The notes under the pieces are model-generated. The model did not search any database, was not told the origin of the DNA, and saw nothing but the letters and a program-made list of their open reading frames with translations. The translations under genes and the position numbers were made by a program. A stretch of 64,000 nucleotides of DNA from Planctomycetota bacterium (GTDB taxonomy: Bacteria > Planctomycetota > Planctomycetia > Planctomycetales > Planctomycetaceae): contig QQVO01000069.1 in assembly GCA_003388505.1 (NCBI GenBank), positions 1-64,000 on the forward strand. Direction: 5' to 3'. This document shows, in pieces, positions 8,457 through 51,794 of the stretch. Within the stretch, counting starts at the first letter, position 1; each line of letters opens with the position of its first letter.

Positions 8457-8457
8457 C

Positions 8458-9402: not shown

Positions 9403-9480
9403 CCGCCAATCCGGACCTTTCGCTTCCAGGAATGAGGAACGCGACCCTGGCGGCGGCAGTGCTGCCCGACAGCGCACGCT

Positions 9481-10258: not shown

Positions 10259-10831
10259 ATGAGGACGATCTTCACTACTGGTCAAGTAGCCAAGATCTGT
10301 AAGGTCGCACCGCGCACCGTCAGTAAATGGTTTGACTCTGGCCGCCTTCGTGGTTACCGGATTCCCGGCTCGCAGGATCGTCGGATCCCGCGTGAGCATC
10401 TCATCCGGTTCCTCAAAGAACACGGCATGCCGCTGGGCGAGCTGGAAGACGAAGCGATGGGCAAGATCCTGCTCGTCGGCGTCGAAGGTCCGGTCCAGGG
10501 CGGATTGAGCGACATTCTGTCGGCCGAGGACTTCAAGATCGATCTGGCTGCCAGCGGCTTCGAGGCCGGCATCCAGGCCGAGTCGCTGCATCCCGATTGC
10601 GTCGTCGTCGACTTCGCGATGGGCCGCAACGAAGCGCTCATGATCGCCCAGAACCTCCGCCGCAATAGCGATTACACCGACACCGTGCTGATCGGACTGC
10701 TGACTGACGACGACACGGCCGCCGGTTTCGACCGCACCGTGTTCAACGAGACCTTCCGTAAGCCGTTCGACGCTGCTCTGCTCGGCGAACGCATCAAGAC
10801 GCTCGTGTCCCGTAAGAAGCAGCTCGTCTAA
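10259..10831 (+). CDS. HTH DNA-binding protein with C-terminal receiver-like domain
   Basis: A 190-residue protein with GGAG eight bases before its ATG. Residues 1-55 are a MerR/excisionase-type helix-turn-helix (TTGQVAKICKVAPRTVSKWF, then GYRIPGSQDRRIPREHL). Residues 68-190 resemble a response-regulator receiver: the phospho-acceptor position is Asp118 in VVVDFA, a Thr149 follows the next strand, and the Lys-Pro pair is FRKP at 167-169. The acidic pair normally near the first strand is reduced to Glu76, so phosphorylation may be weak or absent. HTH before receiver is the reverse of most response regulators. No kinase gene is adjacent. Confidence 0.82.
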   Translation: MRTIFTTGQVAKICKVAPRTVSKWFDSGRLRGYRIPGSQDRRIPREHLIRFLKEHGMPLGELEDEAMGKILLVGVEGPVQGGLSDILSAEDFKIDLAASGFEAGIQAESLHPDCVVVDFAMGRNEALMIAQNLRRNSDYTDTVLIGLLTDDDTAAGFDRTVFNETFRKPFDAALLGERIKTLVSRKKQLV

Positions 10832-10966
10832 TCGCTCTCCTGCACGCATTCGGGGGCCGCGACAGACTTCTGAGCGGCCTTGCATGCGAGTGGGAGACGC
10901 CGCGACGATCCGCCGCAGACGGGGTTGGACGGATCCCCACGGCCTGCGGCTGGCCGTTCACGCGAT

Positions 10967-10995
10967 TTGCCGGTCCATTCGGCTGCCCGTATGAT
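10967..10995 (+). promoter_or_regulatory. Sigma-70-like promoter upstream of the GT39 gene
   Basis: TTGCCG at 10967-10972 and TATGAT at 10990-10995 are separated by 17 bp, a good match to the housekeeping consensus. Predicted transcription would begin near 11002, giving a leader of about 175 nt before the GTG at 11178. Apart from this promoter, 10832-11177 holds nothing clear except an 11-codon open frame at 11146-11181 whose stop overlaps the downstream GTG. Confidence 0.55.
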
Positions 10996-11177
10996 GGCAG
11001 GGACGGACTTGGTGGTCTCCGTGGAATCGGCCGAAGCGGCGAGGTTAATGTGAATCATGTGCAACGGTCAGGTCCGGCGGGTCAACCGGCTCTCCGAATT
11101 GTGGGTCCACCTCCTCCTGACGGACGGGCTCGACCCCTCCAGACCATGACCGAGGTCGTGAACGCAGAGGCTTCGCG

Positions 11178-12953
11178 GTGACGACCGGGACACGGAACGA
11201 CCGAGAGGCGGATGGTTCCTCTGGTCTACCGGAATCGCAGGTGCACGGCTCGATACGACCGGCCGGACAGGCTCGCCCCAGGCGCGCTCGTCCGGCCGTT
11301 TTATTTTGGGCCGGGCCGTTGCTGATTGCTCTCATGGCCGGCGTCGGCGTGCTGGCCTCGCTCGATCCGGCCGGCAGCTATCCCAATCTCGTCGAAGGCC
11401 CGGGCGTGACGCTGGACGAGGTGTTCAATGTGCAGATGGGCGTCTACCAGTACCGCGCATTGAACGATCACGGTTGGAGGCTGTGGACCGCTCCCGTACG
11501 AGACGAGGTCTTCGCCGACAGGTTCTACAATCCGGACCACCCGCCCCTGGGTCGGGTCTGGATCGGCTTCTGCCACGATCTGACGCGCTTTCTTGTTCCG
11601 CCCGTCGAAACCGGCGCCCTCACTGTCACGGCGTGCGCCCGCACCGCCTCGGCAATCGCATTTGCGGCGACTGTGTTCCTGGTTGGTCTGTATGCCGGGC
11701 GATGGTACGGCGTTACGGCCGGATGGACGGCGGCTCTCGCATTGACTCTGATGCCGAGGGTCTTTGCCCATGCGCATCTGGCGTCGCTGGAAACCAGCAC
11801 GAACCTGATCTTCGCAGCAGCAGTTTTCTTCGTTGCGGACCGCCTTGGCCGGGGCCCCGCGCAGGAGACGACGAACCGTAGACTGCTGACGAACGCCTTT
11901 TTGGCCGGATTGCTGTTCGGATTGGCCCTGCTCACCAAAATACAGGCGGTGTTGTTGCCGGTTCCCATCTCCCTGTGGATGCTATGGCGGTTCCGGCTGC
12001 GTGGGCTGCTCCCCATCGGAGTCTTCGGCCTGACCGGGCTGGCCGTCTTTCTTCTCGGCTGGCCTTGGCTGTGGATCGACCCGGCCCCACACCTGCTGGA
12101 ATACTTTCGCAGGGGAGTCGAGCGTGCGACGGTGTACTGTTTCTATCTTGGAACGCGATACCCGGACGTCAACGTCCCCTGGCATTATCCGCTTGTCCTC
12201 TTCGCCGTCACGATTCCAATCGGCCTGCACGTCCTCGCAGTCTGCGGCCTGGTGAAGAACGCAAAACGCGCACCCGACTCGGAAACCGCCGAGCCCGACG
12301 CGACACGAGCCAGAACGATTCTGCTCGCCGGAACCGTCCTCTTCATTCTCGTGTTCTTTTCGCTTCCCGGCATCACGGTGTACGACGGGTCGCGCCTCTT
12401 TCTCGTCGCTGACCCCCTGTGGGCCGTCCTCGTTGGAGCGGGTGCCGAGTGGACGTTCCGTGTGCTTCGGAAGCGTTGGTCAAGTCGCGTCGCGGCCGGC
12501 GTTGTGGCCGGCATCTTCGCCGCTCAGTCGTACGGCGTCATCGCCCTCCATCCCTGCCAACTCAGCTACTACAACGCCGCGATGGGGAGCCTCCGCGGCG
12601 CCGACGGCTGCGGCATGGAACTCAGCTACTGGGCCGACAGCATCACGCGAGATCTGCTGGAGGCCGCCGCCAACAGAATCCCGGCGGGCTCAACAATCGA
12701 CCTCGCCCCCCGGCTGATCCCGGCGCAGGAGACCGAGTTGCTCTTGCAATCGCCGATTCTCACGAAAAAGAACTACCGACTGCGAGCCTACGATGACAAG
12801 GCCGGAAACGACATCCGCTACGTGATCGTCTATCGCCGGAAAGCGGACCCCTGGCCGTCCCTGGACCCGGCTCCCGAGGGCGGAACGCTCATCGCGGAGG
12901 TCCGCCGCGAAGGCGTCCAGCTCGCTGCGGTCTACGAACTTGAGGAACGCTGA
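11178..12953 (+). CDS. GT39/ArnT-like membrane glycosyltransferase
   Basis: A 591-residue multi-span protein of the GT-C fold. The GTG start at 11178 is supported by AGAGG eight bases upstream. After a polar ~40-residue N-tail comes the first membrane span. The first periplasmic loop contains TLDEVFNVQMG, with the Asp-Glu pair typical of PMT/ArnT catalytic loops, and YNPDHPPLGRVW matches the HPPL-type motif of the family. About ten further hydrophobic segments follow. Such enzymes use polyprenyl-phosphate sugars to glycosylate lipids or proteins on the outer face of the membrane. Donor and acceptor are unknown; it stands alone behind its own promoter. Confidence 0.8.
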   Translation: MTTGTRNDREADGSSGLPESQVHGSIRPAGQARPRRARPAVLFWAGPLLIALMAGVGVLASLDPAGSYPNLVEGPGVTLDEVFNVQMGVYQYRALNDHGWRLWTAPVRDEVFADRFYNPDHPPLGRVWIGFCHDLTRFLVPPVETGALTVTACARTASAIAFAATVFLVGLYAGRWYGVTAGWTAALALTLMPRVFAHAHLASLETSTNLIFAAAVFFVADRLGRGPAQETTNRRLLTNAFLAGLLFGLALLTKIQAVLLPVPISLWMLWRFRLRGLLPIGVFGLTGLAVFLLGWPWLWIDPAPHLLEYFRRGVERATVYCFYLGTRYPDVNVPWHYPLVLFAVTIPIGLHVLAVCGLVKNAKRAPDSETAEPDATRARTILLAGTVLFILVFFSLPGITVYDGSRLFLVADPLWAVLVGAGAEWTFRVLRKRWSSRVAAGVVAGIFAAQSYGVIALHPCQLSYYNAAMGSLRGADGCGMELSYWADSITRDLLEAAANRIPAGSTIDLAPRLIPAQETELLLQSPILTKKNYRLRAYDDKAGNDIRYVIVYRRKADPWPSLDPAPEGGTLIAEVRREGVQLAAVYELEER

Positions 12954-24894: not shown

Positions 24895-26283
24895 TCAGCC
24901 GCTCAGCGCTGAGGCGACGTCAGTGCGGTAGGCGGTCATGCCCGGCAGGAATCCAACCAGGCCGGCGAGCAGGATCGTCACCGGGATGACGATCAATTCG
25001 GCGGCTTCGAAGGCGAGCGGATTGATCAGCAGATCGCTGCGGGCTTCGATGATCTTCGCCGCGGCAAAGACAACGCCGTGTCCAAGCAGGATGCCGGCCA
25101 GACCCCCTCCGACGCAGAGGAGCAGCGACTCGGCCAGGATGAGGGAAAAGACCGTTTGCCGGCGCGCCCCGAGCGCCCGCATGACGGCGATCTCGCGCCG
25201 ACGGTCGGACATTGAGTTATAGATGCTGACGAAGATGCTCACACCCGCGACGGCAATAATCAGACCGGTGAGATAGAGCAGCGCCAGTCGGATGTTGCCC
25301 ACCAGGTTCTCAAGCAGTTGCGCCATCGGCTGAACGGGATTGACGGCCTGCGCCCGAAATCCCTGATTGATTTCCTCCGCGATCTTTCTGGCAACCAGTG
25401 TGCGAGAAAGATCCGGTGGCAAAGAACTATTGGGCTCGGGACGCGCTCGAAGCAGAATCGATGTGAATTCCTTCTGAAGGTCTGAAACAAAGTGAGACGG
25501 ATGCTCATGATCGCCGTGATCGTGATTGACCTCCTCTGCAATCCTCTTGAGATCATCGGCATACCACTCGCGAATCAACTCCGGATCCTCCTTGTAGAAG
25601 GCGGCCATGCGGTCGACCGCCTCACTCACCGGCTTCTCATGGCCGTCCAGTAGAAAGAAACCGTCCAGATTGACAAAGACGGACCGATCGTTCGGAGTCC
25701 CGGTCGGTGCGAGAATCCCGCGAACGGTGAACTTGTCATCGTGGACATCGGATTCGTTCGGATCTTTGCCGCCGTGAATCATCCGGAATTCGCTGCGCAG
25801 GTCCCAGTCGTTTCGACGTGCGACCTCCGACCCGATGATGGCGTCCCACTTGTCACGCAGATAGTTCCCCTTCTCCCCCTTGATCTCGAATTCCTGCTCG
25901 TTCGTCGCTCCGAGAGCAAAGTATTCCGGTGTCGTACCGACAATGGGGAACCCGCCTTCTTCCGTGAAGTCCCCAAACGCGACGGGAACGGCCAGTTCAA
26001 CGCGTTCATCGGAGGCGATTTCTTCGTAGTATCGCCAGGGAAGATTCTCGATCGGCCTCTCGATGCGGTACACCGTGCTCAGCACGAGTTGCAATGCGCT
26101 CCCTTTAGGACCGACGATCAGGTTGTACCCCGTGCCGGACTGGGTGAACATCTCAGTGATGACGCCGTTGATCACCAGCACGGCCACCATCAGCGCCACG
26201 CCGAGGGCCACGCTGAGCGCCGTCAGAAACGAAGCCAGCCGTCGCTGGCGAATGCTCTTCCAGGCGATCGTCAGCAGATTCAT
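24895..26283 (-). CDS. ABC transporter permease (FtsX/MacB type)
   Basis: A 462-residue permease. One N-terminal span (MNLLTIAWKSIRQRRLASFL start) is followed by a ~240-residue periplasmic domain and three C-terminal spans. The conserved MacB/LolC cytoplasmic motif is SDRRREIAVMRALGARRQTV. The periplasmic domain contains a histidine cluster, HDHGDHEHPSH (residues 254-264), suggesting metal binding. Its start overlaps the stop of the ATPase gene by 4 bp (ATGA), so they form one exporter. The family exports lipoproteins, peptides or drugs, or transmits mechanical force; the substrate is unknown. Confidence 0.87.
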   Translation of the reverse strand: MNLLTIAWKSIRQRRLASFLTALSVALGVALMVAVLVINGVITEMFTQSGTGYNLIVGPKGSALQLVLSTVYRIERPIENLPWRYYEEIASDERVELAVPVAFGDFTEEGGFPIVGTTPEYFALGATNEQEFEIKGEKGNYLRDKWDAIIGSEVARRNDWDLRSEFRMIHGGKDPNESDVHDDKFTVRGILAPTGTPNDRSVFVNLDGFFLLDGHEKPVSEAVDRMAAFYKEDPELIREWYADDLKRIAEEVNHDHGDHEHPSHFVSDLQKEFTSILLRARPEPNSSLPPDLSRTLVARKIAEEINQGFRAQAVNPVQPMAQLLENLVGNIRLALLYLTGLIIAVAGVSIFVSIYNSMSDRRREIAVMRALGARRQTVFSLILAESLLLCVGGGLAGILLGHGVVFAAAKIIEARSDLLINPLAFEAAELIVIPVTILLAGLVGFLPGMTAYRTDVASALSG

Positions 26284-26951
26284 GCAGCGACCTCCGGCCG
26301 GTTGAAGTCGGACAGGGTGTCAACGCGGTCGAACTGGTCGGCCACTTCGCGGGCGTGCGTGACCAGGAGCAGCGAAACGCCGTGTTCGGTGCAGGCTTCG
26401 CGGATCAGTTTGAGTACGTTTTCCTGATTCGCGACGTCGACGTTCGCCGTCGGTTCGTCGGCCAGCATCAGGCGGGGACGATTGGCGAGAGCCCGGGCGA
26501 CGGCCACCCGCTGTTGTTCTCCGACTGAGAGGGCGCCCGGCTTGTGGTCGAGGCGATGCTCCAGGCCGACACGGCCGAGCAACTCGCGGGCGAACTGCGG
26601 ATCGGAGCGGCCGGAGAAACTCATGCCGAGCAGCACGTTCTCGAGCGCCGTGAAGGCGGGCAGCAAATTGAACGTCTGAAAGACGATCCCGATTTTTTCG
26701 GCCCGGAACCGGTCCCGGATGACTTCGTTCATGCCGGCGACTTCGGTGCCGTCGATGACAATCGAGCCGGAATCGACCTGCGTGATGCCGGAGATCACGT
26801 TGAGCAGCGTCGATTTTCCCTCGCCGCTCTGTCCCACGAGTGCGGCCTGCTCACCCGACTTGAGGCGATATTCGTCAATGCTGAGCACCGGCAGACGGGA
26901 TCCGTCCGGATTACGGTAGCTCTTCTGGACGCTCTTGAGGACCAATGACAT
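26280..26951 (-). CDS. ABC transporter ATP-binding protein (LolD/MacB type)
   Basis: A 223-residue ATPase from the ATG at 26951; the frame is open upstream but that part is not protein-like. Walker A is GQSGEGKST, the Q-loop is FQTFNLLP, the signature is LSVGEQQRV and Walker B is RLMLADEPT, followed by the H-loop LLVTHAREVADQF. It powers the FtsX-like permease encoded downstream, overlapping by 4 bp. No ribosome site is obvious upstream. Confidence 0.9.
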   Translation of the reverse strand: MSLVLKSVQKSYRNPDGSRLPVLSIDEYRLKSGEQAALVGQSGEGKSTLLNVISGITQVDSGSIVIDGTEVAGMNEVIRDRFRAEKIGIVFQTFNLLPAFTALENVLLGMSFSGRSDPQFARELLGRVGLEHRLDHKPGALSVGEQQRVAVARALANRPRLMLADEPTANVDVANQENVLKLIREACTEHGVSLLLVTHAREVADQFDRVDTLSDFNRPEVAA

Positions 26952-27313
26952 CGTCGGCGTGGATAACGAAGAACAATTCGCGATGGACGGTAGTGCATAC
27001 GCCGCCAGGCCGCAAGATGTTGGATCACGGATGAATCGGCAGGACGCCCGCGCGGATTTCGGCAGTTGTTGAACAAGCAGCAGTCTCTGCGCTTCCGGCT
27101 CCTGCGCTGACTCGGCTGTTTTACGATTTGGCTGGACCGTGAATCCGCACGAAGCCCCGCCGGATTCTTCACAAACTCCCCATCCGCGTAAACCCGCCGA
27201 ATCTGCGTCATCCGCGGCCCATTCGATCTTCTGGACGGGATGAACCTCGCGCGAAACTTCTCGAAAAGACTTTGATCCCGCGCCCGAAATGGTACGTTGT
27301 GCTTCGCAGATTG
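26952..27313. other. Non-coding divergent region
   Basis: About 360 bp between the ABC ATPase and the rhomboid frame. Minus-strand frames here continue the ATPase frame upstream but look random (Arg/Ser-rich). No repeat or clear promoter was seen. Confidence 0.5.
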
Positions 27314-27413
27314 AACTTCGGCCGGGTTCGTTATCTTCTTTCCCATCGGGACCGACGCACCGCTCTATTACCGTCCTTACGCGACGATCGGGCTGATCCT
27401 GGCCAACATCGTT

Positions 27414-28511
27414 GTGTTCTTCACGAATTTCACGAGCGCAAGTGACGCCTGGCTGCTGCATTATGGCGACGGGCTGCATCCGGTGGAGTGGATCACATCC
27501 GTCTTCTACCACTTCGGCCCGCTGCACCTGGCCGGGAACATGGTGTTCCTGTGGACGTTCGGGCTGATCGTCGAAGGCAAGATCGGCTGGTGGCGGTTCT
27601 TGTTGCTCTATCTCGGTCTCGGGGCGGCGGAATGCGCGATCGAGCGGACTCTGATGCTGGGTTACGACGGCCCACCCGGCAGCGGTGTGAGTGCGGGCGC
27701 TTCGTCGGCGATCTATTCGCTGATGGCGATCGCCTTGATCTGGGCGCCGCGGAATGAGATCACTATCTGCTACTGCTACGTCTTCGGAGTCTTCTGGCGC
27801 GCGGGGACGTTTGAAGTCTCAGTCTGGTTCTTTTCGCTGTTCTTCATCGGGCTCGACCTGCTGATCGCGTCGCTGGTCGGATTCCAGATTGGCACCGAGG
27901 TGCTGCACCTGCTGGGGGCGCTGGTGGGGATTCCTGCCGGCGTTGCGATGGTGAAAGCCGGTCTGGTCGACTGTGAAGGGTGGGACATCTTCTCTCTGCT
28001 CAACAAGCGGACGTTGATCGACGAGACGGTCGGGCCTGCGGCGCTCCGGCTCAAACCCGAACAGCCCGATCCGGATCAGGTCACTGTCCGCCGGCCCTCC
28101 GCCAAACGTCGCGCCCGGCAGATGCGAGAAGCCCTGGAGGCGGGAAACGTGTTGGGAGCGGCCTCCTTCTATCAGGAATTGCATTCCAGCGGGCGGCAGT
28201 CGGTTGTCGATGAACCGCTGCTGAGGAAGCTGATCGAGGGAACACGCCGGGAACAGGACTGGCCGGCGCTGATTCTGATGCTGGAGGACTACCTGGATCG
28301 CTTTCCCGAGCGAGATACCAACGCCCGGTTGATGCTGGCGGGACTGATGGTCCGGGAGCAGCAGCGTCCCCGTTCCACGTTGCGGGTTCTGGACGCCGTG
28401 CCGGAGGACGAATTGTCGCCCGAACAGCGAAAGTACGTGGCGTCGGTCCGCACGGCGGCCGAGTCGATGATCGAAAGCGGCGTGATGGAACTGGCGGTCG
28501 AGCGGGCGTGA
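27414..28511 (+). CDS. Rhomboid family intramembrane protease with long C-terminal tail
   Basis: At least 365 residues. The first canonical start is GTG at 27414, but the frame is open from 27315 and upstream codons read VIFFPIGTDAPLYYRPYAT then IGLILANIVV. That is the usual rhomboid beginning and first helix, so the true start is probably near 27333 with a non-standard codon. Loop 1 has FYHFGPLHLAGNM. The catalytic serine lies in SAGASSAIYS, and the histidine partner in EVLHLLGALVGIP. After the last span the ~160-residue tail is helical, with TPR-like features (AALEAGN, LEDYLDRFPERDTNARLML). It cleaves membrane proteins within the bilayer; the target is unknown. Confidence 0.85.
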   Translation: MFFTNFTSASDAWLLHYGDGLHPVEWITSVFYHFGPLHLAGNMVFLWTFGLIVEGKIGWWRFLLLYLGLGAAECAIERTLMLGYDGPPGSGVSAGASSAIYSLMAIALIWAPRNEITICYCYVFGVFWRAGTFEVSVWFFSLFFIGLDLLIASLVGFQIGTEVLHLLGALVGIPAGVAMVKAGLVDCEGWDIFSLLNKRTLIDETVGPAALRLKPEQPDPDQVTVRRPSAKRRARQMREALEAGNVLGAASFYQELHSSGRQSVVDEPLLRKLIEGTRREQDWPALILMLEDYLDRFPERDTNARLMLAGLMVREQQRPRSTLRVLDAVPEDELSPEQRKYVASVRTAAESMIESGVMELAVERA

Positions 28512-39967: not shown

Positions 39968-41698
39968 TCACAGTGCTCGCCCCTGCGTGAGTGATTCGAT
40001 CAATGATCGCAGAGTCTCCTCGGGATAGAGCGCATAGGAGTACTCCCGATCCTGCAAGACTCGATTGGCGGCCAGCTTGTCTTCGACCTCGCGAAGTTGC
40101 GCCGCAAGTCTGGCGCGGTAGTCCTCTCCGTGGGCCGCCAGTTGCTCGTTGATCTCGCGGAATTCGAGGTAGCGGGCGCGGTTTTTCGTGCGCCGCAAGC
40201 GGCGCTGTCGGAAGGAAAGGTCGTCCACCCGCGCGGACTCCTGCCGTTCAATCAACGCGTGCTTCCGGCGGACGAGGTCTGTGACATCCCCGTCGACGAC
40301 GTGTCGCTCCGGGTTGAACCGCGCGTCTCGCAGCTTGCGGCGAAGCTCCCGCGCATCGTGCTGTGCGACGGGGTAGGTTTTCCCTACCGGAAGGTGCAGC
40401 GTCGCGGTCGCCATCAGGAATCGCGGCGGTTCGATTCCGAAGAACCGATGGATGATCCGGTCGGTCATCTCGTCGTACTTCGCTCCTCCGATGCCGTGCA
40501 CGAACAGGTCGCTGAGACAGAGTCGGGCGAAGAGCGTGGTCGTCAGGGCGCGGGTCCGGAAACGGACGCCCTGCGCGGGCAACTGTTCCAGTCCTTCGAC
40601 CGCGCAACAGGCATCCATCTCAGGCGTCAGCCGCAAGGTGGCGAAGACGTCGGCGCCGTCGGAGAGCTGGAGTTCGTTGCCGGTCTGCCGGGCGAAGACG
40701 CGGCTGCGGTGCTGTTGGCCTTCGCGCCACATCCAGAACGGCGCTTCCAGCCAGCCGTCGAGTTCGGCCAATTCGGGAACGGGGTGCGACCGGCTCCTGA
40801 TCCTGTTTACTTTACGGTATTGCCACAGCACTTCGTTATGGATCTCGCGAAACCGCGGCAGATGCGCCAGCAGATGGCTGGCAAACCACAGGAAGGCCGG
40901 CTGCCGGCACATGCGGCTTAGCGGCAACTCCAGGTTTTCGAGCCCAAAGCGGCGTTCCGCCGACTGACGAGCGGCAGTCAGACAGTCGCTGAGGGATCCA
41001 CTTTCTTCGCTGTATCTCACGGCCACAGGCCACATCTCGGCCACCACGGGGCGAACTTGCCAGTTCGACATGTGTGCGACGGCCCGCTCTCCGAAGGAGC
41101 GGAAGAGCTTCAGGTCGGCGATCGTCGCGTCCTCCCAGGGCTGCGACGGACAGGGAACATCGTAGGGGAGCCACGCGGCCGCAGGGCGTCCCGGCGCGCC
41201 GCCGGGAATCTTGACCGCCCGCGAGGAGACGGTGTCGTTATCGACGATGAGATTGAGGCCGGTCCCGCTCGCCCGGTCTGCCATTCGCCCGAGCACGAAG
41301 TTCTTGACCCAGACGCCGGGGTGAAACAGCGCCGGCTGATGTCCTCCGGCGAACACAAGCTGTGAGCCGTCGGGAACTTCTCGCCGTTCGCCGGTGATCT
41401 GAGACGTGTAATCGGCCGCTGCACGAAGGCAGCCCTCGCGAGCCCAAGCGCGAAGATGTTCCAAAGTTCGTCCCTGGAGATCGAGGCGTTCCGCTGCGAG
41501 CCGGTCATGAGTCTCGCGGGCGCTGCGGCACGCCGCGGCCAGCGGGACGCTCATCAGAATGCGTCCGTTCTCCGAGGGCGCCCGGAATCGTTGGGGCGTC
41601 CAGGCATCTTCGGCCGTATCGGTCCCGCGATCACGTTCCGTCGCCGCTTGCGGCTTCAGCCCTGCTGAGGTGGGATCAGGCGGAACGGCGGCCGGCAT
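39968..41698 (-). CDS. Uncharacterised protein, distantly BshC-like pattern
   Basis: About 576 residues from the ATG at 41698; a start at 41776 would overlap the upstream glycosyltransferase by 40 bp, and one at 41554 (MSVPLAAACRSARET) is also possible. No domain was firmly recognised. Notable segments are LVFAGGHQPALFHPGVW, NLIVDNDTVSSRAVKIPGG, GIGGAKYDEMTDRIIHRFFG and a C-terminal charged region (~470-576) predicted to be coiled coil (EDYRARLAAQLREVEDKLAA). The HQP motif near a GxxxxxK region followed by an acidic turn faintly recalls bacillithiol synthase BshC; this is weak. It lies in a row with a GT2 (upstream) and a Gfo/Idh/MocA gene (downstream), all on the minus strand. Confidence 0.6.
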   Translation of the reverse strand: MPAAVPPDPTSAGLKPQAATERDRGTDTAEDAWTPQRFRAPSENGRILMSVPLAAACRSARETHDRLAAERLDLQGRTLEHLRAWAREGCLRAAADYTSQITGERREVPDGSQLVFAGGHQPALFHPGVWVKNFVLGRMADRASGTGLNLIVDNDTVSSRAVKIPGGAPGRPAAAWLPYDVPCPSQPWEDATIADLKLFRSFGERAVAHMSNWQVRPVVAEMWPVAVRYSEESGSLSDCLTAARQSAERRFGLENLELPLSRMCRQPAFLWFASHLLAHLPRFREIHNEVLWQYRKVNRIRSRSHPVPELAELDGWLEAPFWMWREGQQHRSRVFARQTGNELQLSDGADVFATLRLTPEMDACCAVEGLEQLPAQGVRFRTRALTTTLFARLCLSDLFVHGIGGAKYDEMTDRIIHRFFGIEPPRFLMATATLHLPVGKTYPVAQHDARELRRKLRDARFNPERHVVDGDVTDLVRRKHALIERQESARVDDLSFRQRRLRRTKNRARYLEFREINEQLAAHGEDYRARLAAQLREVEDKLAANRVLQDREYSYALYPEETLRSLIESLTQGRAL

Positions 41699-41736
41699 CG
41701 CGCGGAATCCAGACGTCTGAGAGGATTGAACGGCGG

Positions 41737-42492
41737 TCACGGGGCGGCGGCGCCTGCTGCGGCGGGCTTCCCGCACTCCATGGAAAACTCATCCATCTCG
41801 CGCTTGAGCACCTCGCGGTAGTACCTCAGCCGACGTTCGGAATCGTCGAGAGACCCGCCGAAGGAGCGCTCTTCATCGAGATAGATCAGAGGCACCGGAA
41901 ATTCGACGATTCGCAGTCCGTGCCGGACCGCCTGGACCCAGAGTTGCAGCGGCATGGCATAGCCGGGTTCCGTCACGTCGAACCGCGTGAGGGCCAGCGG
42001 GCTGTAAGCCTTGAAGCCGCAGAAGGCGTCGGTCAGCTCAAGCTGAAAGCACTCGTTGAGCTGCCGGGTGATCTCCATGTTGATCCGCCGCCGCGCTTCC
42101 GGTGGCCGGCTGTCGCCGGGGAACGGCTTGAGATAACGGCTGCCCGAGACGATGTCCGCGCTTTCACCGTCCGCCGGTTGCAACGCTGCGACCAGTTGCG
42201 GGATCAGTTGCGGCTCATGCTGTCCGTCGCAGTCGATCGTCACCAGCGCGTCATACTCCTGGGCCAGCGTGAATTCGAACGCCGTCCGCAAGGCGGCGCC
42301 GTACCCCTGATTTCCCTCGTGATGAACGACCTGGAGATCGGGGAGGGAATCGAGCAGCTCCGAAGTCCCGTCGGTCGAACCATCATCGACGACGAGGATG
42401 TCGCGACAATGCTTGCGCACCTCTCGCAGCACGTTTTCCACGTGGGAGACTTCATTGAAGACCGGCAGGGCCGTCAGATAATTCCGCATCAT
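41737..42492 (-). CDS. Family 2 glycosyltransferase (DPM1/DPG synthase-like)
   Basis: A 251-residue GT-A enzyme. LTALPVFNEVSHVENVL is the nucleotide-binding start, ILVVDDGSTDGTSELLD the first Asp motif and VTIDCDGQHEPQLIPQL the DxD-like metal site. GSRYLKPFPGDSR and TDAFCGFKAYSP match polyprenyl-phosphate mannose/glucose synthases. No C-terminal membrane span is seen. The product may be a polyprenyl-phosphate sugar usable by GT-C enzymes such as the GT39-like protein in this window, which is inference. It is divergent from sodA. Confidence 0.88.
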   Translation of the reverse strand: MMRNYLTALPVFNEVSHVENVLREVRKHCRDILVVDDGSTDGTSELLDSLPDLQVVHHEGNQGYGAALRTAFEFTLAQEYDALVTIDCDGQHEPQLIPQLVAALQPADGESADIVSGSRYLKPFPGDSRPPEARRRINMEITRQLNECFQLELTDAFCGFKAYSPLALTRFDVTEPGYAMPLQLWVQAVRHGLRIVEFPVPLIYLDEERSFGGSLDDSERRLRYYREVLKREMDEFSMECGKPAAAGAAAP

Positions 42493-44843: not shown

Positions 44844-45653
44844 TTACCAGCCATCGGCCCGGACGGGATCGACCTGTTGCATCCCGGTGACGCGGATGAT
44901 GAGGACGCGTTCTGATCCCCCGCCGCCCTCTTCGTCGAAGAAGAACAGGCTGCCGATGGAATCAGGTTGGCCCCGCCCTGCCCCGAGCACGAGAATCTCG
45001 CCGAGGTTCATCTGCAGGTCGATGCGCTGCTCGTAGAGTTCGTCGATCTGTTGCGCCTTCTTGAACGTCCATTGCTGGTCGGAGGCGACCCGCCGCACTT
45101 GAGATTCGCCGTGGTGAATCTCGGGCAGCACCTGAAGCCTCACCCAGCCCTCCTGGTCTCGTTGGGCAGAGACTCGCAACACACATCGGGCCGAGTCGTA
45201 GCGCCGGGTGCTTTCGCCCTGGAGGGCGGGCGTCTGGAATTCGACCGGCGCGTCGTAGACGGCGGCTTCGAGTTCCGCCGAGTCGCCGGAGAGGAGCGTG
45301 AACTCCTGGTATCTGGTTTTCTGTGCGGCGCTGCCGGTCTCTTTGTCACTGACGATGGCGCGAATCTGGCGTGGTGGATTGGAGGGCGTGAGTCCGCAGC
45401 GGAATCCCGCCTTGCGAAGCCGCACCGAGGTCTGCGCGTCGATGCCGCCGCCTTCAGCGATGCCGCTCCATAAGGCCTCTCCGACGAGGATGTCACCGCG
45501 CGGGCGCTCGACGAAGTAAACCTGCAGTTCGATCCCGTCTTTAGGGGCCACGAGGGGCGAGAGGACGGAGCGCTCCGTCTGCTGGGTCTTCCGAACGTTG
45601 AGTGGTTCACAGCCCGAGGCGATCACTGCAAGGATGAGAAGCAGGGGCGCCAT
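44844..45653 (-). CDS. Lipoprotein of unknown function
   Basis: About 269 residues from the ATG at 45653, giving a signal peptide with lipobox IASGC; an upstream start at 45737 would add an Arg-rich stretch. The mature protein begins EPLNVRKTQQTERSVLSPLV. Segments include IELQVYFVERPRGD and RVSAQRDQEGWVRLQVLPEIHHG, then DELYEQRIDLQMNLGEILVLG. It ends with a predicted beta strand after a Gly-rich acidic patch (FFDEEGGGGSERVLIIRV). The late beta-rich part faintly resembles secretin-type segments, but no family is assigned. It is convergent with hemL. Confidence 0.65.
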   Translation of the reverse strand: MAPLLLILAVIASGCEPLNVRKTQQTERSVLSPLVAPKDGIELQVYFVERPRGDILVGEALWSGIAEGGGIDAQTSVRLRKAGFRCGLTPSNPPRQIRAIVSDKETGSAAQKTRYQEFTLLSGDSAELEAAVYDAPVEFQTPALQGESTRRYDSARCVLRVSAQRDQEGWVRLQVLPEIHHGESQVRRVASDQQWTFKKAQQIDELYEQRIDLQMNLGEILVLGAGRGQPDSIGSLFFFDEEGGGGSERVLIIRVTGMQQVDPVRADGW

Positions 45654-45748
45654 TCTCCGCGCGCGAGGACTTCCATGCGCCGTGCGAGACCGGCGCAAAG
45701 CTCTGTGGGGAGGGAAAAGACCGTCAGACCGCGTCATGCGATGTGGCT

Positions 45749-45852
45749 TATTGCGTTTTGCGAATCAGTGTTGGCGATCTGTCTCGCGGATTCTCGTCCT
45801 CGACAGTGCAAACACCGCTCGACGCGGACACATGGTAGAGCGATTCGCTCTA
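45749..45852 (+). repeat. 104-bp intergenic repeat family 1, copy 2
   Basis: Same length and register as 28559-28662 and 50897-51000. The right-end palindrome is TAGAGCGATTCGCTCTA (45836-45852), where both arms differ from copy 1 in a way that keeps pairing. It lies in the divergent region between the lipoprotein gene and the FkbM gene (45654-46104), which holds nothing else recognised. Confidence 0.8.
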
Positions 45853-46104
45853 GCGCCGCAGGGCGACTTGCGTCGCCTCACTTCAGCGGCTGTTTCCTGC
45901 GTGAGATGAGAAGTGGAGGGGCGTGGGGGTATATCGCGAAATCGGCCGCGCTGTCAATTGCCGCCGCTTGAGTGAAGGCCTGCTTGAGGCCCAAACGGGA
46001 AACTGAGATTGCCGAAAACGGCCGAAAATACTACGAGTGTCGTGTCTCCCTCTCGCCGGGGGAAAGCACAACCCGATTCCGGGCAGGGACTTGGGGGAAG
46101 CGAC

Positions 46105-46986
46105 ATGTCACCGCCGCCGACATCGGATCAAACCTCACATCTCGGCGCGAGTCGTACGGCTTCGCCGACCACGGATTCCGAGGCTCTTCCCTTCGGCACT
46201 TTTCGCCCGTCGCGGTCGATGGCGCGAGTCCTCGCCGTCACGAGACGGTTGCCGGATCGCACCTGGAGCCGAGCGGTGAGTTCGGTCTGCCGGCGCCTGT
46301 TGGGAGACGTCGGAGACGGTCCGATCGACACCGAGGTCTACTCATTTCGGATGCGGCTGCATCCTGAGGACAATCTCTGCGAGAAGCGGGTGCTGTTTGC
46401 TCCCCAATCGTTCGATCCTGCCGAGCGGAAGTTTCTCGCTGAAACGCTCGATTGCGGATCGACGTTTATCGACGTGGGAGCGAACGCGGGGGTCTACAGC
46501 CTGTTTGTCGCGCAGACGTGCAGCGATCGGGCGCGAGTCGTCGCTGTTGAGCCCGATCCTCGTGTCCGCAGCCGACTCGAATTCAATATTCGCGCCAGCG
46601 ACATCTGCTGCATTGAGGTCGACGGGACGGCGGTCAGCGATCGCTGCGGGACCATCGAGCTTTTCCTGAATCCCGTGAACCGCGGGTGCAACAGCATCGT
46701 TCGTCAATCGGGCGAGTCGATCGTGGTTCAAGCGGTGACACTGCGGCGTTTGCTCGACGCCCACGAGATTGAGCGCCCGGACTGCATCAAGCTCGACATC
46801 GAGGACGCCGAAGAGATCGTACTCCGCCGGTTCTTTGACGAAATCGAGCGGAAGCGATGTCCGGGCGCGTTCATCCTGGAGCAGCATCGAAAGCAGCCGC
46901 TGAGCCCCGCCGTGAATCTTCTGCTCGATCAGGGGTACCGGCTCGTGCGGCAGACCCGCATGAACTTAATTCTGACACTGCGGTAG
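46105..46986 (+). CDS. FkbM family methyltransferase
   Basis: About 293 residues from the ATG at 46105, with GGGGGAAG upstream; a TTG at 46009 would add 32 residues. The N-terminal ~70 residues are Ser/Thr-rich and variable. The SAM-binding core begins CGSTFIDVGANAGVYSLFVAQ, with VVAVEPDPRVRSRLEFNI as motif II. Later VTLRRLLDAHEIERPDCIKLDIEDAEEIVLR matches the FkbM signature. Such enzymes O-methylate sugars and polyketides. Next to sulfotransferases and a transferase, a role in modifying a surface polysaccharide is likely. Confidence 0.87.
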   Translation: MSPPPTSDQTSHLGASRTASPTTDSEALPFGTFRPSRSMARVLAVTRRLPDRTWSRAVSSVCRRLLGDVGDGPIDTEVYSFRMRLHPEDNLCEKRVLFAPQSFDPAERKFLAETLDCGSTFIDVGANAGVYSLFVAQTCSDRARVVAVEPDPRVRSRLEFNIRASDICCIEVDGTAVSDRCGTIELFLNPVNRGCNSIVRQSGESIVVQAVTLRRLLDAHEIERPDCIKLDIEDAEEIVLRRFFDEIERKRCPGAFILEQHRKQPLSPAVNLLLDQGYRLVRQTRMNLILTLR

Positions 46987-46995
46987 ATCGACGCC

Positions 46996-48030
46996 CTACG
47001 CAGCAGCCGGCAGCACGTCCTGAAGTTGCTCGGCGATTTGCGCGAGACTTTCGTTCGCACTGGGGACGGCGCAGGCAGTGAGGGTTCCGGCGTCGAGTCG
47101 GATCATGTCCTCGATCGGGACGCGCTGCATCTGAGAGCGGCTGACGTAATAGTCGAGTAGCTGGTCGAGAGCGAGCGTGGCTCTTGCCCTCTTCGGGCGG
47201 AGTGCGATGACCGGCTTTCCGGTCGCAGCCGCTTCGGTGAGCATCGTTCCACTGTCTTCGGTGCAAAAGATGACCCGGCCGCGTCCGAGGAGTGCGTTGT
47301 AGATTCGACGCGGATCGGTGCGGACGATCTGCAGTTCGTCGACGCATGCTTTCACTTCGGGGCACGACAGGAGTTGTTCGCATGTCCGATCGGTGCGGCG
47401 GGATGTGGTGATCAGCCAGCGGATGTTGAACCGCGCTGCGAGGATCGGCAGGGACTCGGCGAGGGCGGTCCAGTCGCGGCGTGAATACCGGTATCCGCCG
47501 GACCGGCCGCCGACGAGGAGCGTCCAATGCGACGTACCGGTGAACCCGGCGGGTTTTCCGGTCAAATAGTCGGTCTCCGCCTGGTTGAGAATCGCGGGTG
47601 TGATCTCGGTCGGAATCGGAGCATCGATGAAGCGTGGGTCACCCGCGTGTTCACTGTTGTGGACGATGAGCCGGGAGAAGTATGCGTCGCTGATGCCCCG
47701 CGAAAACCCGATGAAGACGTTGGCACACCGGTAGTGCTGCGCCAGCCAGGCGTTGATGAATGCGGTCTTTCCCCCGGAGGAGATAATCAGGTCGGGCCGA
47801 TGCGGCAGTTCCGCCGGCAGCCGGTAGACCATTCTCAGCCAATTCAGGCCGGGGAGTGTGCGATGCTGCTTGAGATAGAACCTGAGCGCGTCGTGGTAGG
47901 CGGCAAATCTCATGCGGACGTCGAGCCGCGAGATTGTCGCCGGCCGCTGTGCTGTCATCGCCTGGGCGACCGCCTCGGACTTCTTGTAGTGGCCGGGCTT
48001 TCCGTCCTTGAGGATCAGCAGGTGGAGCAT
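46996..48030 (-). CDS. ELM1/GtrOC1-family putative glycosyltransferase
   Basis: A 344-residue protein of the family annotated as mitochondrial fission ELM1 in plants and as nucleoside-diphosphate-sugar epimerase-like or GtrOC1 in bacteria. It begins LHLLILKDGKPGHYKKSEAV. PDLIISSGGKTAFINAWLA and WTLLVGGRSGGYRYS are typical. VIFCTEDSGTMLTEAAATGKPV is the donor-binding style motif of GT-B enzymes. A sugar-transfer role in lipopolysaccharide-like surface glycans is inferred. It is convergent with the FkbM gene (9 bp between stops). Confidence 0.75.
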   Translation of the reverse strand: MLHLLILKDGKPGHYKKSEAVAQAMTAQRPATISRLDVRMRFAAYHDALRFYLKQHRTLPGLNWLRMVYRLPAELPHRPDLIISSGGKTAFINAWLAQHYRCANVFIGFSRGISDAYFSRLIVHNSEHAGDPRFIDAPIPTEITPAILNQAETDYLTGKPAGFTGTSHWTLLVGGRSGGYRYSRRDWTALAESLPILAARFNIRWLITTSRRTDRTCEQLLSCPEVKACVDELQIVRTDPRRIYNALLGRGRVIFCTEDSGTMLTEAAATGKPVIALRPKRARATLALDQLLDYYVSRSQMQRVPIEDMIRLDAGTLTACAVPSANESLAQIAEQLQDVLPAAA

Positions 48031-48144
48031 ATCAACGGCTCAGCGGGGAGAGTCGATCGATGATGTGGACCGCGGAGACCGTTCGCGGAGGAGGCCCGCG
48101 GGCTGCAACCAGTGGGCGTTGTGGACCGTCTGACGTTCCGACAA

Positions 48145-48858
48145 TCAGGCGGCGGCCCGGCGGTCCTCGTATTCGTAGCCGAGAAGTTCGATTTCGCTGC
48201 GAAAGTGATCCGCGATGATCTGCTGCTGCCGCTCGTCGAACAGTTCGCTGTAGTGACGTTTGTCTTTGCGGGTGTGGCTCTTGGCTTTGGGGAGCCAGCC
48301 GTCGAATTCGATGCCGACTTGCGCGAGGGCGTGCGCCATGCCGTCGGTCAGTTCCTCGAAGCGTCCGACGTAATCGACGGCGACTTTCCCATCGATGCTG
48401 TAGTACTGGAAGTTGTACTGGGGAAACCGGCCCTGGTATCGCTCGAAGTACTGTTCGAGCGTCATCGGCTTGCGGTCGCGTGTGCAGCGCCAGAAGTAGT
48501 TGGAGACGGTCTTGTCCCAGGGATTGCGGTCGAACGTGAACTTGAAATAGGAGTTCCAGACGTGGGGTTCGATTCGCTCTCTCGCATCAGCGGCCGTCAT
48601 GTGGCCCCAGAACCGCTGCTTTTCGCGACCGCGGACGACGAGCTTGTAGACGTCGTACCAGCCGTAGTTGCGACGATCCTCCAGGTAGTTCTTCGGCTCG
48701 ACGCCGAGCGGCCTGCGAATCGCTTCCTCGTCGGGGCCCATCGGCGTCACGACGTCCTCGGGTCCGTCGCAGTAGCGGGAGAGCGAGATTTCGGTGCTGG
48801 ACGACGCCGTCTTGCGTGTCTTGAGGTAGATGAACTTGTGTTTGTGCGACAGCAGCAT
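48145..48858 (-). CDS. Sulfotransferase family protein 1
   Basis: A 237-residue protein from the ATG at 48858. MLLSHKHKFIYLKTRKTASS is the PAPS 5'-phosphosulfate loop region (Lys-Thr and Ser cluster). FDRNPWDKTVSNYFWRC is the 3'-phosphate-binding motif. It resembles the Sulfotransfer_2 (carbohydrate sulfotransferase) group. It would transfer sulfate from PAPS to a sugar hydroxyl. It starts 24 bp after the stop of the second sulfotransferase gene, in the same operon. Confidence 0.8.
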   Translation of the reverse strand: MLLSHKHKFIYLKTRKTASSSTEISLSRYCDGPEDVVTPMGPDEEAIRRPLGVEPKNYLEDRRNYGWYDVYKLVVRGREKQRFWGHMTAADARERIEPHVWNSYFKFTFDRNPWDKTVSNYFWRCTRDRKPMTLEQYFERYQGRFPQYNFQYYSIDGKVAVDYVGRFEELTDGMAHALAQVGIEFDGWLPKAKSHTRKDKRHYSELFDERQQQIIADHFRSEIELLGYEYEDRRAAA

Positions 48859-48881
48859 GGCAAGTCTCCCCCGCGGGCGAA

Positions 48882-49739
48882 TCAGGCGGCCCGCTTCTGG
48901 ATGTTCTGGAACCTCTCCGGCGCGTGTTTGGCGGAACTCCAGTCGTCGTAGTCGTAGCCGAGCGGATGCTTGAGCCACGCGCGGCAGCGGCGCGAGAAGT
49001 ATTCGCGGTCTTCCGCGCTGAACCACTCAACGGGATCCCGATTGTCCTTGCGGACGAGATCGAGTCGTCGTCCGGGCTCTTCCCGCCGGGACATTTTGTC
49101 TTTCGTGGAGGCCTCTGCGGCGCAGCGGAAGATGTCCGGATCGCTCACCGGCAAGCCGAGGAATTTCCAGGCGCGCTGCAGTTCCCCGGCGGCGTCTCGC
49201 GAGAGTGATTCGTAATGCACAACATGGACGTTGCCGGGCAGAACCTGCGAAACGCGTCCCCAGGCGTTGAAAAAACTGATGCGGCGGATGAGATCCCATT
49301 TGTTGGGATTCGCGAAGAACCGTTGCTCCCGGAGATACTCTGAGAAGGTCATCTGGAAGTCGTGTTTGCGCTTCTCGTAGCGGGAGACCATAGCGGCCCG
49401 CATGTCGCGGACGAGGACCAGGTATCTGGGATAGCGGAGCAGATTGCGGAACGGCGCTGCGTGCACAATCGGTGAGGGCGCGTGGTGCGTCCAGACAAGC
49501 TGGGGGATGTCGGGCCGGGGTTTGATGTCCCGCGGATGCCCGATGAGCACGCGGTCGTCGATGTGCTGCGGACGTTCCACGCCGTATTGCAGGCAGATCG
49601 CCTCGGCCAGCAGATGGTTCAGCCAGTGGCTGCCGGACTGCTGCCCGGTGACCACGTGGCAATCGACGTCGCGGTGCCGGAACAACGTCCAGCGAAACAG
49701 ATCGTCCCGCAAGAAGCGGGCGGCGTAGCGGAATTCCAT
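48882..49739 (-). CDS. Sulfotransferase family protein 2
   Basis: A 285-residue protein. DCHVVTGQQSGSHWLNHLLA is the PAPS phosphosulfate-binding region. YLVLVRDMRAAMVSRYEKRKH is the 3'-phosphate-binding strand. VVHYESLSRDAAGELQRAWKF and FLGLPVSD are the common C-terminal sulfotransferase motifs. It does not look like a recent duplicate of the neighbouring sulfotransferase, so two acceptor positions or substrates are likely. It lies between the 2OG-oxygenase-like gene and sulfotransferase 1 on the same strand. Confidence 0.82.
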   Translation of the reverse strand: MEFRYAARFLRDDLFRWTLFRHRDVDCHVVTGQQSGSHWLNHLLAEAICLQYGVERPQHIDDRVLIGHPRDIKPRPDIPQLVWTHHAPSPIVHAAPFRNLLRYPRYLVLVRDMRAAMVSRYEKRKHDFQMTFSEYLREQRFFANPNKWDLIRRISFFNAWGRVSQVLPGNVHVVHYESLSRDAAGELQRAWKFLGLPVSDPDIFRCAAEASTKDKMSRREEPGRRLDLVRKDNRDPVEWFSAEDREYFSRRCRAWLKHPLGYDYDDWSSAKHAPERFQNIQKRAA

Positions 49740-49753
49740 TTCCGTCTTTCCGG

Positions 49754-49790
49754 CTCGTGTCCTGTCAAGGCTTGGGGTTCATCTCGGCGG
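49754..49790 (-). repeat. Degraded copy of repeat family 2
   Basis: The reverse complement reads aagccttgacaggacacgag, close to aagccctgacagggcacgag in copy 3. It sits in the 59-bp gap between two operon genes. Confidence 0.35.
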
Positions 49791-49798
49791 GGATGACG

Positions 49799-50584
49799 CT
49801 AATAAGCCGCGTCAGTGGCGTTGGCCATGTAGCGATTCAGCAGGGTGTTCCTGACGCCGATCCCCGAGGGGACGAGTTCCACGCCGTGCCAGCTCCGTTT
49901 GCCGGGGCGATTGTTCACGACGAAGGCGTAGGCGCTGTTCGGACGGTAGGGGAACCGTTTGACCTCTTGGAATTTGCCGCGTCCGAGCATCCGCTCCCAC
50001 GTGGCCCGCTGACGGTACAGGGAGGTGCCGAGTTGCTCCTGCCCGTCGTTCTCCGGGAAGTAGAACTGCATGGTGACGATCGTTTCCAGACCGTCGGGGT
50101 GCGGTTTGATGCGGTATTGGTCGGTATCTCGGAGCAGGACGAGCCTGGGGTGGGACTCGATGCCGTCGACTTCGCTTTCGGCGATGTCGAACCGGAATGC
50201 AAGATCCTTCGCGACGCGTCGGAAGACCGCCTTCTTGAGCGCTTCGGAGGTCAACAGCGAGGAGACCGTACGCCACAAGCCGCGTCGCTCTTCATCGATT
50301 CTTGAGACGGCCTCGTCCGTGACAAACAAACGGTCACGAGTGCTCGTTCCGTCGGGACGTTTCCAGACCTTGATGTTTTGCGGGCTGTAAAGCCCGACGT
50401 CCGGAAACGAGGAGCGAATCTGGTCGTAGAAGTCCTGCGGAAAGACGTTTTCGATGTAGACGTGCGAATAGGGTTCGTCACACGCCTGAGCGGCGTTGAC
50501 GGCGCTGACCATGTGCGTCAGCACGAGATTCTCCAGTCCCGGAGTTTCTCCTGCGGCGTATCGCCGCGCGGCAGAAGCAGTCAT
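49799..50584 (-). CDS. 2-oxoglutarate/Fe(II) oxygenase-like protein
   Basis: A 261-residue protein with a jelly-roll oxygenase pattern. The putative iron ligands are His162 and Asp164 in RIKPHPDG, and His233 in KRSWHGVE. Arg245 (GIGVRNTLL) is placed to bind 2-oxoglutarate. MQFYFPEND and SAYAFVVNNRP are the surrounding strands. It may hydroxylate a sugar, lipid or protein in the surface-glycan pathway encoded by the adjacent sulfotransferase genes. It is the first gene of that minus-strand run. The call rests on motif spacing. Confidence 0.72.
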   Translation of the reverse strand: MTASAARRYAAGETPGLENLVLTHMVSAVNAAQACDEPYSHVYIENVFPQDFYDQIRSSFPDVGLYSPQNIKVWKRPDGTSTRDRLFVTDEAVSRIDEERRGLWRTVSSLLTSEALKKAVFRRVAKDLAFRFDIAESEVDGIESHPRLVLLRDTDQYRIKPHPDGLETIVTMQFYFPENDGQEQLGTSLYRQRATWERMLGRGKFQEVKRFPYRPNSAYAFVVNNRPGKRSWHGVELVPSGIGVRNTLLNRYMANATDAAY

Positions 50585-51032: not shown

Positions 51033-51794
51033 CTAACGCGACAACCAGCCGCCGTCGATGGGGATGATGCTGCCGTGCATGTAGCGGGAGGCGTCGCTGG
51101 CGAGAAACACACACAAGCCCGCCAGTTCATCCGGCTGCGCCCACCGCCCGCACGGGATGCGATCCATGATTTGCGGTCCCCGCACAGGATCGTCTTTCAG
51201 CACGCCCGACAACTCCGTTTCGAAATAACCCGGACAGATACAGTTCACATTTACCCCTTTGGGCGACCAGGCGACCGCGAGAGACTTGGTGAGTCCGGCG
51301 ATTCCATGTTTCGCAGCGGCATACGCCGGGATGTTCATCCCGCCTTCGAACGACATCAGGGAGCCGATGTTGATGATCTTCCCGTACTGCCGGGGGAACA
51401 TGTGCCGGACCGCCTGTCGGGCGAGATCGAAGGCGGCGTTCAGGTGGATTTCGAGCAGCCGCATGTAATCGTCGAGCGGATACTCTTCCGGCGGAAACCG
51501 GCCGGTGTTCCCGGCGTTGTTAACCAGTATGTCGATCGACGGCGTCTCTTCCGCGATTCGGTCGATGAGCCCGGCCCGCTGTTCCGGTTCCGCCAAATCG
51601 CACTGAACGTCCCAGAAGTCTCGGCCGCATGACTCGACGAGCCGCCGCGTCTCATCCGACTTCGCTGACCGGGTGACCGAAACGACGTCGGCCCCCGCTT
51701 GTGCGAGTCCATACGCCATCGCCTGTCCCAAGCCGCGTCCGCCACCAGTGACGATGGCGACTCGTCCGTCGAGTTTGAACAGGTCCAGTATCAC
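51033..51794 (-). CDS. SDR-family oxidoreductase, KduD-like
   Basis: A 253-residue short-chain dehydrogenase with a GTG start (GGGAG upstream). FKLDGRVAIVTGGGRGLGQA is the cofactor-binding start, DILVNNAGNTG the structural NNAG motif, GKIINIGSLMSFEGG carries the catalytic Ser, and YAAAK the Tyr-Lys pair. NVNCICPGYFETEL is typical of sugar-acid dehydrogenases. The overall pattern resembles 2-deoxy-D-gluconate 3-dehydrogenase/KduD, which acts on unsaturated uronate breakdown products. No uronate-pathway gene is next to it, so the substrate is uncertain. Confidence 0.82.
   Translation of the reverse strand: MILDLFKLDGRVAIVTGGGRGLGQAMAYGLAQAGADVVSVTRSAKSDETRRLVESCGRDFWDVQCDLAEPEQRAGLIDRIAEETPSIDILVNNAGNTGRFPPEEYPLDDYMRLLEIHLNAAFDLARQAVRHMFPRQYGKIINIGSLMSFEGGMNIPAYAAAKHGIAGLTKSLAVAWSPKGVNVNCICPGYFETELSGVLKDDPVRGPQIMDRIPCGRWAQPDELAGLCVFLASDASRYMHGSIIPIDGGWLSR

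Follow-up and report, generated by a model that had tools for sequence, protein, structure and literature searches.

Positions 1 to 64,000 of contig C12 (QQVO01000069.1), here called the window, belong to a bacterium of the Planctomycetaceae whose assembly (GCA_003388505.1; G000 in what follows) amounts to 6.8 Mb and is 98.8% complete. Our subject is a co-directional run of four genes on the minus strand, from 50584 to 46996, which encode, in the order of readout, a protein resembling Fe(II)/2-oxoglutarate (2OG) oxygenases (OX, of what we term type A; 49799..50584), a sulfotransferase of the Sulfotransfer_1/3 type (sulfotransferase 1; 48882..49739), another of the Sulfotransfer_2 type (sulfotransferase 2; 48145..48858) and a protein of the ELM1/KdoT family with a GT-B fold (46996..48030). 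The successive gaps are 59, 23 and 114 nucleotides (nt), and we infer that the four are one transcript, i.e., an operon; a promoter scan gave one site where 1.3 are expected by chance, and a terminator scan gave nine where 6.4 are expected (standard deviation 2.5), so that these scans say little either way. An earlier note on this DNA had set these four genes together with an FkbM-type methyltransferase in a cluster starting at 45654. All five genes are real, four of them having Pfam matches and the oxygenase being vouched for by invariant residues, a confident model and the Fe/2OG enzymes that are its best solved matches. The left edge, though, was misplaced, as 45654 falls within a minus-strand gene (44844-45737) and the FkbM frame opens at 46009.

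What makes OX an oxygenase, given that it has no Pfam match at E 0.1? In Fe(II)/2OG oxygenases an HxD...H triad holds the metal and an arginine binds 2OG, and in OX H162-x-D164, H233 and R245 are invariant both in an 18-row alignment (A1) and in one of 33 rows (A3) that holds 32 relatives. The AlphaFold2 model (pLDDT, the predicted local distance difference test, 93.1; pTM, the predicted template modelling score, 0.89) is a double-stranded beta-helix of the 2OG-oxygenase kind, and its nearest solved folds are PolD (9blq; Z 20.1, 2.5 Å over 199 residues) and PasI (9ei6; Z 19.8). A profile search with OX also reaches them (9blq at 4.5e-5, 9ei6 at 4.6e-5), with its HxD and H aligned to theirs; identity to PolD and PasI (9ei6, 9ei7) is 14-16% and the HxD...H arrangement is the same. 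Membership of the Fe(II)/2OG oxygenase superfamily holds, the activity being predicted from the model, and the HxD...H residues foreseen in the earlier note are conserved in a model that has the expected fold. The substrate may be a sugar: by its entry title the PasI structure has as ligand 5-amino-6-hydroxy-octanosyl acid 2-phosphate, an eight-carbon sugar acid, which by analogy is a hint of sugar chemistry for OX and not proof of it. The only PHROGs match of OX, at 0.022 and to a family of minor coat proteins, was taken as chance.

A functional analogue of OX would be KdoO, the 3-hydroxylase of 3-deoxy-D-manno-octulosonic acid (Kdo), an Fe/2OG oxygenase that works after a Kdo transferase and converts Kdo to Ko (D-glycero-D-talo-oct-2-ulosonic acid), according to the accessible parts of two reports (PMC8533242, PMC5462993). 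However, OX as KdoO itself is ruled out, the KdoO family PF11004 having no match in OX at E 0.1 and none in G000. Comparisons such as this one were made in a family sample of 170 genomes, G000 included, several of which are fragmented and many of which lie in hundreds of contigs, so that a split cluster could be missed; PF11004 occurs in only one of them (G047).

The window's ELM1 matches PF06258 (1.6e-27; 96.9 bits against a cut-off of 27 in the Pfam scan of the window's proteins), and its model (pLDDT 84.1, pTM 0.83) has the two Rossmann domains of a GT-B fold, its matches among GT-B-fold proteins having Z of 16-21 and covering about 280-306 residues, with MurG at 18.2; a sequence search of the PDB with it gave nothing useful (best E 0.05). 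An earlier paper had left the function of bacterial ELM1 open (PMC10936431, in the part available), and only in 2025 was an enzymatic activity assigned to bacterial proteins annotated as ‘mitochondrial fission ELM1’. As far as the available part of that report goes (PMC12856342), the A. baumannii protein KdoT, which carries the ELM1-like annotation, is an inverting Kdo transferase of GT-B fold that acts on Kdo2-lipid IVA, is the sole member of the family with a reported activity, and has an SRRT motif in which R180 is important while R179A is without effect. The window's ELM1 has SRRT at residues 210-213. Among 51 aligned ELM1 rows the second arginine is invariant and the position of the first varies (SRRT in 38, SNRT in six, SERT in four, and SRRS, SLRT and SKRT in one each), which fits the KdoT mechanism family-wide. 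The likeness, then, is one of annotated family (PF06258), fold and motif, and on that footing a GT-B glycosyltransferase of KdoT type is the best reading of the window's ELM1, its activity being a prediction from sequence.

PAPS (3′-phosphoadenosine 5′-phosphosulfate) sulfotransferases decorate bacterial surface glycans, rhizobial LpsS being an example. Sulfated lipopolysaccharide (LPS) and capsule systems of that kind are like the present one in having a PAPS sulfotransferase directed to a surface glycan, and differ from it in that the window's operon joins two sulfotransferase types with an ELM1 protein and an oxygenase. Sulfotransferase 1 matches PF00685 (3.1e-10; 40.3 bits against a cut-off of 22) and PF13469 (9.1e-8), and a PDB sequence search gives it a weak match to sulfotransferases (0.005). 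The lysine of the PKSGT 5′ motif is catalytic in Sulfotransfer_1 enzymes, and in all eight aligned members of this family a glutamine takes its place, aligned with the lysine of 7d1x, so that sulfotransferase 1 is a putative enzyme only. Two tandem paralogues of it lie elsewhere in the genome (L053, G000:C19, 8093-10075), near an acyltransferase and a phosphomannose-isomerase-like gene.

For sulfotransferase 2 the open reading frame called mechanically is 48145-49026 (PF03567, 8e-10). The start is most likely the ATG at 48858, since gggggaga precedes it, relatives have a Met or a start codon in that column (Met in four of the seven aligned, a GTG opening in two) and the Pfam score is kept in the short form of 237 amino acids (3.9e-10; 40.7 bits against a cut-off of 22); this ATG stands 23 nt past the stop of sulfotransferase 1. 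Its stretches FIYLKTRKTASSS and RNPWDKTVSNYF, which we take to be the 5′ and 3′ phosphosulfate-binding motifs, align with those of relatives. A PDB sequence search with it gave nothing useful (best E 0.74), and in PHROGs it matches a galactose-3-O-sulfotransferase family (9.8e-5). The genes for PAPS synthesis that the earlier note wished to see sought are represented by an APS (adenosine 5′-phosphosulfate) kinase at C14:63692-64144 (2.7e-71), so PAPS should be at hand.

How far do these genes travel together? PF06258 was found in 51 of the 170 genomes (58 places), the oxygenase, searched with alignment A2, in 35 (40 places, which on our reading of the match table are 25 of type A, 11 of a shorter type termed OXb, and four fragments), sulfotransferase 1 in 10, strongly in five of them (eight places), and sulfotransferase 2 in 33. 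Eight of the 58 PF06258 places belong to genomes outside the set for which flanking DNA was fetched (G012, G116, G117, G120, G122, G123, G129 and G130). The ELM1 tree and counts rest on 51 of 54 hits, L066 and L068, which duplicate L198 and L203, being set aside together with a fragment of less than 250 amino acids. The labels ST3, OXc, GT4, MT23 and ABC stand for our own profiles of one to eight seeds, Pfam-checked on examples only; OXb and OXc, likewise our own labels and both shorter than type A, have matches to 2OG-FeII_Oxy_3, over the cut-off for OXc and under it for OXb.

The tree, rooted at its midpoint, has three groups, of 27 rows, of 18 rows and of six, the last including the window's ELM1; it is there that, according to a warning of the program, long branches converge, so that deep joins may be false. 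Within 6 kb and on the same strand, as judged with our own profiles, 10 of the 51 rows have a sulfotransferase, 16 an oxygenase and nine a GT4. An ABC (ATP-binding cassette) gene lies within 6 kb in 24 of the 27 rows of the largest group and an oxygenase in 13 of the 18 of the second; oxygenases, in three subtypes (type A, OXb, OXc), adjoin ELM1 genes from every one of the groups, and sulfotransferases adjoin ELM1 genes from two, or from three if both ELM1 genes of the operon in G088 count. That operon (L055), which has on one strand ELM1b-OXb-OXc-ST1-methyltransferase-GT4-ELM1a-ST3, is in content the closest to the window's, and in the tree its ELM1a pairs with the window's ELM1 as sister (support 100/97 among the 51 rows). 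In genus g50 the order is ABC-ELM1-ST3-ST2, complete in six fetched loci and cut by a contig end in one. Twelve g50 genomes have a sulfotransferase 2 match below 1e-30, and in 11 of them about 1 kb separates that gene from ELM1, a space that ST3, a second sulfotransferase, fills where fetched; in G124, the remaining one, the two genes fall on separate contigs. With the partners spread in this way over the ELM1 groups, recruitment has probably happened more than once, and this recurrence is, in our view, the strongest sign of a functional connection between them.

OXb is directly downstream of ELM1 in all ten family places that could be assessed, an eleventh being at a contig end, and the pair exists also in two uncultured Alphaproteobacteria. 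At all 12 junctions of the pair that were read, the frames overlap when the start nearest the junction is taken, 11 of them by 4 nt (ten with ATGA, one with TTGA) and one by 29 nt. OXb is rare in the phylum at large, two of 392 genomes drawn from it (G000 and G088) having it. In G000 itself there is a second run, ELM1b-OXb-OXc-GT4 (L054, G000:C9:61000-80000, at 6919-10900), with the TTGA overlap between its first two genes. In the Alphaproteobacteria the pair (L201, 8569-10612; L202, 8440-10456) is situated between a carA-carB-greA-like run and a trxB-like gene, names given by reading the sequences and not by family search, and ELM1 with its mechanical start overlaps the preceding gene by 4 nt. 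G047, one of six g15 genomes and the only one without the ELM1-OXb pair, has the sole PF11004 match of the family sample (G047:C279:25824-26639; L232, L233), with one TAG inside it and no match to 12 of our own profiles beside it; it is a single case from which nothing is drawn.

On what molecule might such genes act? The ABC gene beside ELM1 has MsbA as its best NCBIfam model in both of the two cases tested, at 389 and 433 bits, below the cut-off of 602, and in L059 (G005, 8629-12721) ST1 adjoins a GT4 and a fusion of a GT4 with a Kdo/WaaP-type kinase domain. WaaA was found in 161 of the 170 genomes and kdsB in 165 (153 of them over the cut-off), G000 being among them, so that the Kdo-lipid A machinery should be at hand. 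The earlier note's tailoring set, sulfating and with an Fe/2OG oxygenase and having no polymerase or flippase of its own, is upheld, but a polymer as its target gives way to a lipid-linked acceptor resembling the LPS core, preferred because relatives carry an MsbA-like ABC exporter, GT4 and a WaaP-type kinase. Our proposal, to which we give a little less than an even chance, is that, at the cytoplasmic face of the inner membrane, the four-gene operon builds on and decorates a single sugar of an oligosaccharide that is lipid-linked and resembles the LPS core; acceptor, donor and the order of the steps are what we infer. ELM1 would transfer one sugar from a nucleotide donor, CMP-Kdo (CMP being cytidine monophosphate) or that of another acidic sugar, to the lipid-linked core by means of its SRRT arginine, Kdo being the leading guess because of KdoT; OX would hydroxylate that sugar or a neighbouring one; sulfotransferase 2, and perhaps sulfotransferase 1, would add sulfate from PAPS; and the product would then be flipped and exported by machinery encoded elsewhere, many relatives having the MsbA-like ABC gene beside ELM1.

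A good deal weighs against the lipid-linked core proposal. Beside the window's operon itself there is no ABC exporter, GT4 or kinase. WaaA and kdsB, being near universal in the family, are not specific to it. The window's ELM1 is a divergent one, scoring 94.7 bits in the PF06258 genome search against 104-315 for the other family places, and the best fold matches of its model are UDP-GlcNAc (uridine diphosphate N-acetylglucosamine) 2-epimerases, followed by MGD1 and MurG; as those epimerases are themselves of GT-B fold, fold alone is no proof of transferase activity. To these come the glutamine of sulfotransferase 1, the five of 18 rows in the second ELM1 group that have no oxygenase within 6 kb, five further g50 genomes (G117, G119, G121, G130, G133) with ELM1 and without a strong sulfotransferase 2, and G161 and G156, which have the closest matches to sulfotransferase 2 (that of G156 contains stops) and their window-group ELM1 on a different contig. 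The exact gene set of the window did not turn up in any of the other 169 family genomes, many of which are fragmented, so conservation of the whole cluster, which the earlier note had wanted examined for its five genes, has to be given up, and what is linked in relatives is the same gene types. Type A oxygenases, moreover, are linked to ELM1 in only two of 25 places (G000 and G021), and those of Bradyrhizobium and Aquibium lack ELM1 in their fetched flanks. Might the genes then have come together by chance, surface-modification genes with nothing in common in a stretch of mixed content? The set seen only in G000, the 23 unlinked type A oxygenases and the convergent FkbM gene would suit that view, which we nevertheless hold to be highly improbable: the four genes are co-directional and closely spaced, ELM1-sulfotransferase and ELM1-oxygenase links recur across the ELM1 groups, and, seven of the 25 type A places being in genomes that possess ELM1, the linkage seen in two of these seven compares with about 0.02 expected within 6 kb at random, on a rough estimate.

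A serious rival, if on balance an unlikely one, is that the set tailors a polymer produced by other genes, be it a capsule, an exopolysaccharide or one of O-antigen type, with ELM1 adding a branch sugar and the other enzymes sulfating and hydroxylating. Pfam, NCBIfam and own-profile scans found no exporter, GT4, kinase or core genes adjoining the window's operon, and in particular no MsbA-like exporter near 46996-50584, where the only match to the ABC profile anywhere in the window is at 26280-27527, an ABC ATPase. Within the ELM1 group of the window, two genes adjoin a polysaccharide deacetylase, one with PgaB/IcaB/HfsH-like matches below cut-off, and sulfated exopolymers are reported in Pontiella and in microbial mats. 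Set against this are the ELM1 relatives beside MsbA-like ABC and GT4 genes, ST1 beside the fusion of GT4 and WaaP-type kinase, and two points from the available portions of the A. baumannii papers: the activity reported for the ELM1 family is on Kdo2-lipid IVA (PMC12856342), and a polysaccharide deacetylase is present also in the core locus of that bacterium, which is no polymer locus (PMC10936431).

The chemistry of the nearest solved oxygenases raises a further alternative, namely that the operon makes a non-LPS glycolipid or a small secreted glycoside and that OX acts on the aglycone or another small molecule. PolD is part of a nucleoside antibiotic pathway and has genomic neighbours other than those of OX (PMC12614342, as far as its accessible text goes), and the title of the PasI ligand suggests the same. 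Type A oxygenases that have no ELM1 in the fetched flanks (L164, L168-L171, L173-L183, L185-L189, L191, L192, L194, L195), those of Bradyrhizobium, Aquibium, Pseudaminobacter, Oricola and their kin, also lend themselves to this alternative. Yet Pfam and NCBIfam found no aglycone-making genes among the scanned neighbours of the operon, and three oxygenase subtypes occur beside ELM1, so that it seems to us distinctly unlikely.

From the lipid-linked core proposal a wider one can be extended, of which we are even more doubtful than of the glycoside alternative: that ELM1 enzymes supply the transferase of an inner-core module which hydroxylates and sulfates, that planctomycetes thereby gain an LPS core bearing sulfate and added hydroxyl, and that ELM1 and the oxygenase have travelled as a two-gene cassette between Planctomycetota and Alphaproteobacteria. 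A KdoT-like transfer of an eight-carbon acid sugar would then be followed by conversion of that sugar by a coupled 2OG oxygenase, giving Ko or some comparable hydroxylated octulosonate independently of KdoO, and by sulfation.

KdoT and the sulfation of bacterial glycans were already known, and what appears to be new is that ELM1 is joined by 2OG oxygenases and by sulfotransferases of two types, a variant on known themes. Among the matches listed from open-licence literature, no bacterial ELM1 linked with sulfotransferases or 2OG oxygenases was found. The core cluster of KdoT, as described in the available parts of the two papers (PMC12856342, PMC10936431), resembles some planctomycete ELM1 loci in holding glycosyltransferases and a polysaccharide deacetylase, and, unlike the case of the window's ELM1, those parts do not mention linked sulfotransferases or 2OG oxygenases. 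If the lipid-linked core proposal is correct, a family with a misleading name becomes tied to sulfated, hydroxylated surface glycolipids, a group of 2OG oxygenases with no Pfam match gains a concrete guess at its substrate, and what planctomycetes sulfate becomes directly testable with four genes. To our knowledge, the structure of planctomycete LPS is poorly known.

Of the genes around the operon, that for the FkbM-family methyltransferase (46009..46986, plus strand) has clear family matches: PF05050 at 3e-14 and 53.9 bits against a cut-off of 22.7, TIGR01444 at 2.3e-26 and a PHROGs methyltransferase family at 5.8e-17, with a PDB sequence search giving nothing useful (best E 0.21). It is convergent to the operon, its end being 9 nt from that of ELM1, and a one-sequence FkbM profile found no other member in 111 fetched stretches, no genome-wide FkbM search having been made. 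As a module member it was rejected on these two grounds, and it is probably outside the operon; the transferase role that the earlier note gave to ELM1 stands, now in KdoT-type form, and the part it gave to FkbM probably falls away. On the operon's other side, a short-chain dehydrogenase/reductase (51033..51794, minus strand; PF13561, 9e-56) lies upstream of OX at a distance of 448 nt; it is a same-strand neighbour and a candidate member only.

Farther off in the window, the sulfatase that had been noticed near 3693 is genuine (3555-5147; PF00884, 6.8e-52) and has an SGSH-type C-terminal domain. At 39968-41776 is the gene of a 602-amino-acid protein without a match in Pfam (at 0.001) or NCBIfam (at 0.1), and it overlaps a gene of the GT2 type (41737-42492), for which the top NCBIfam model, at a score under its cut-off, is a polyprenyl-phospho-N-acetylgalactosamine synthase.

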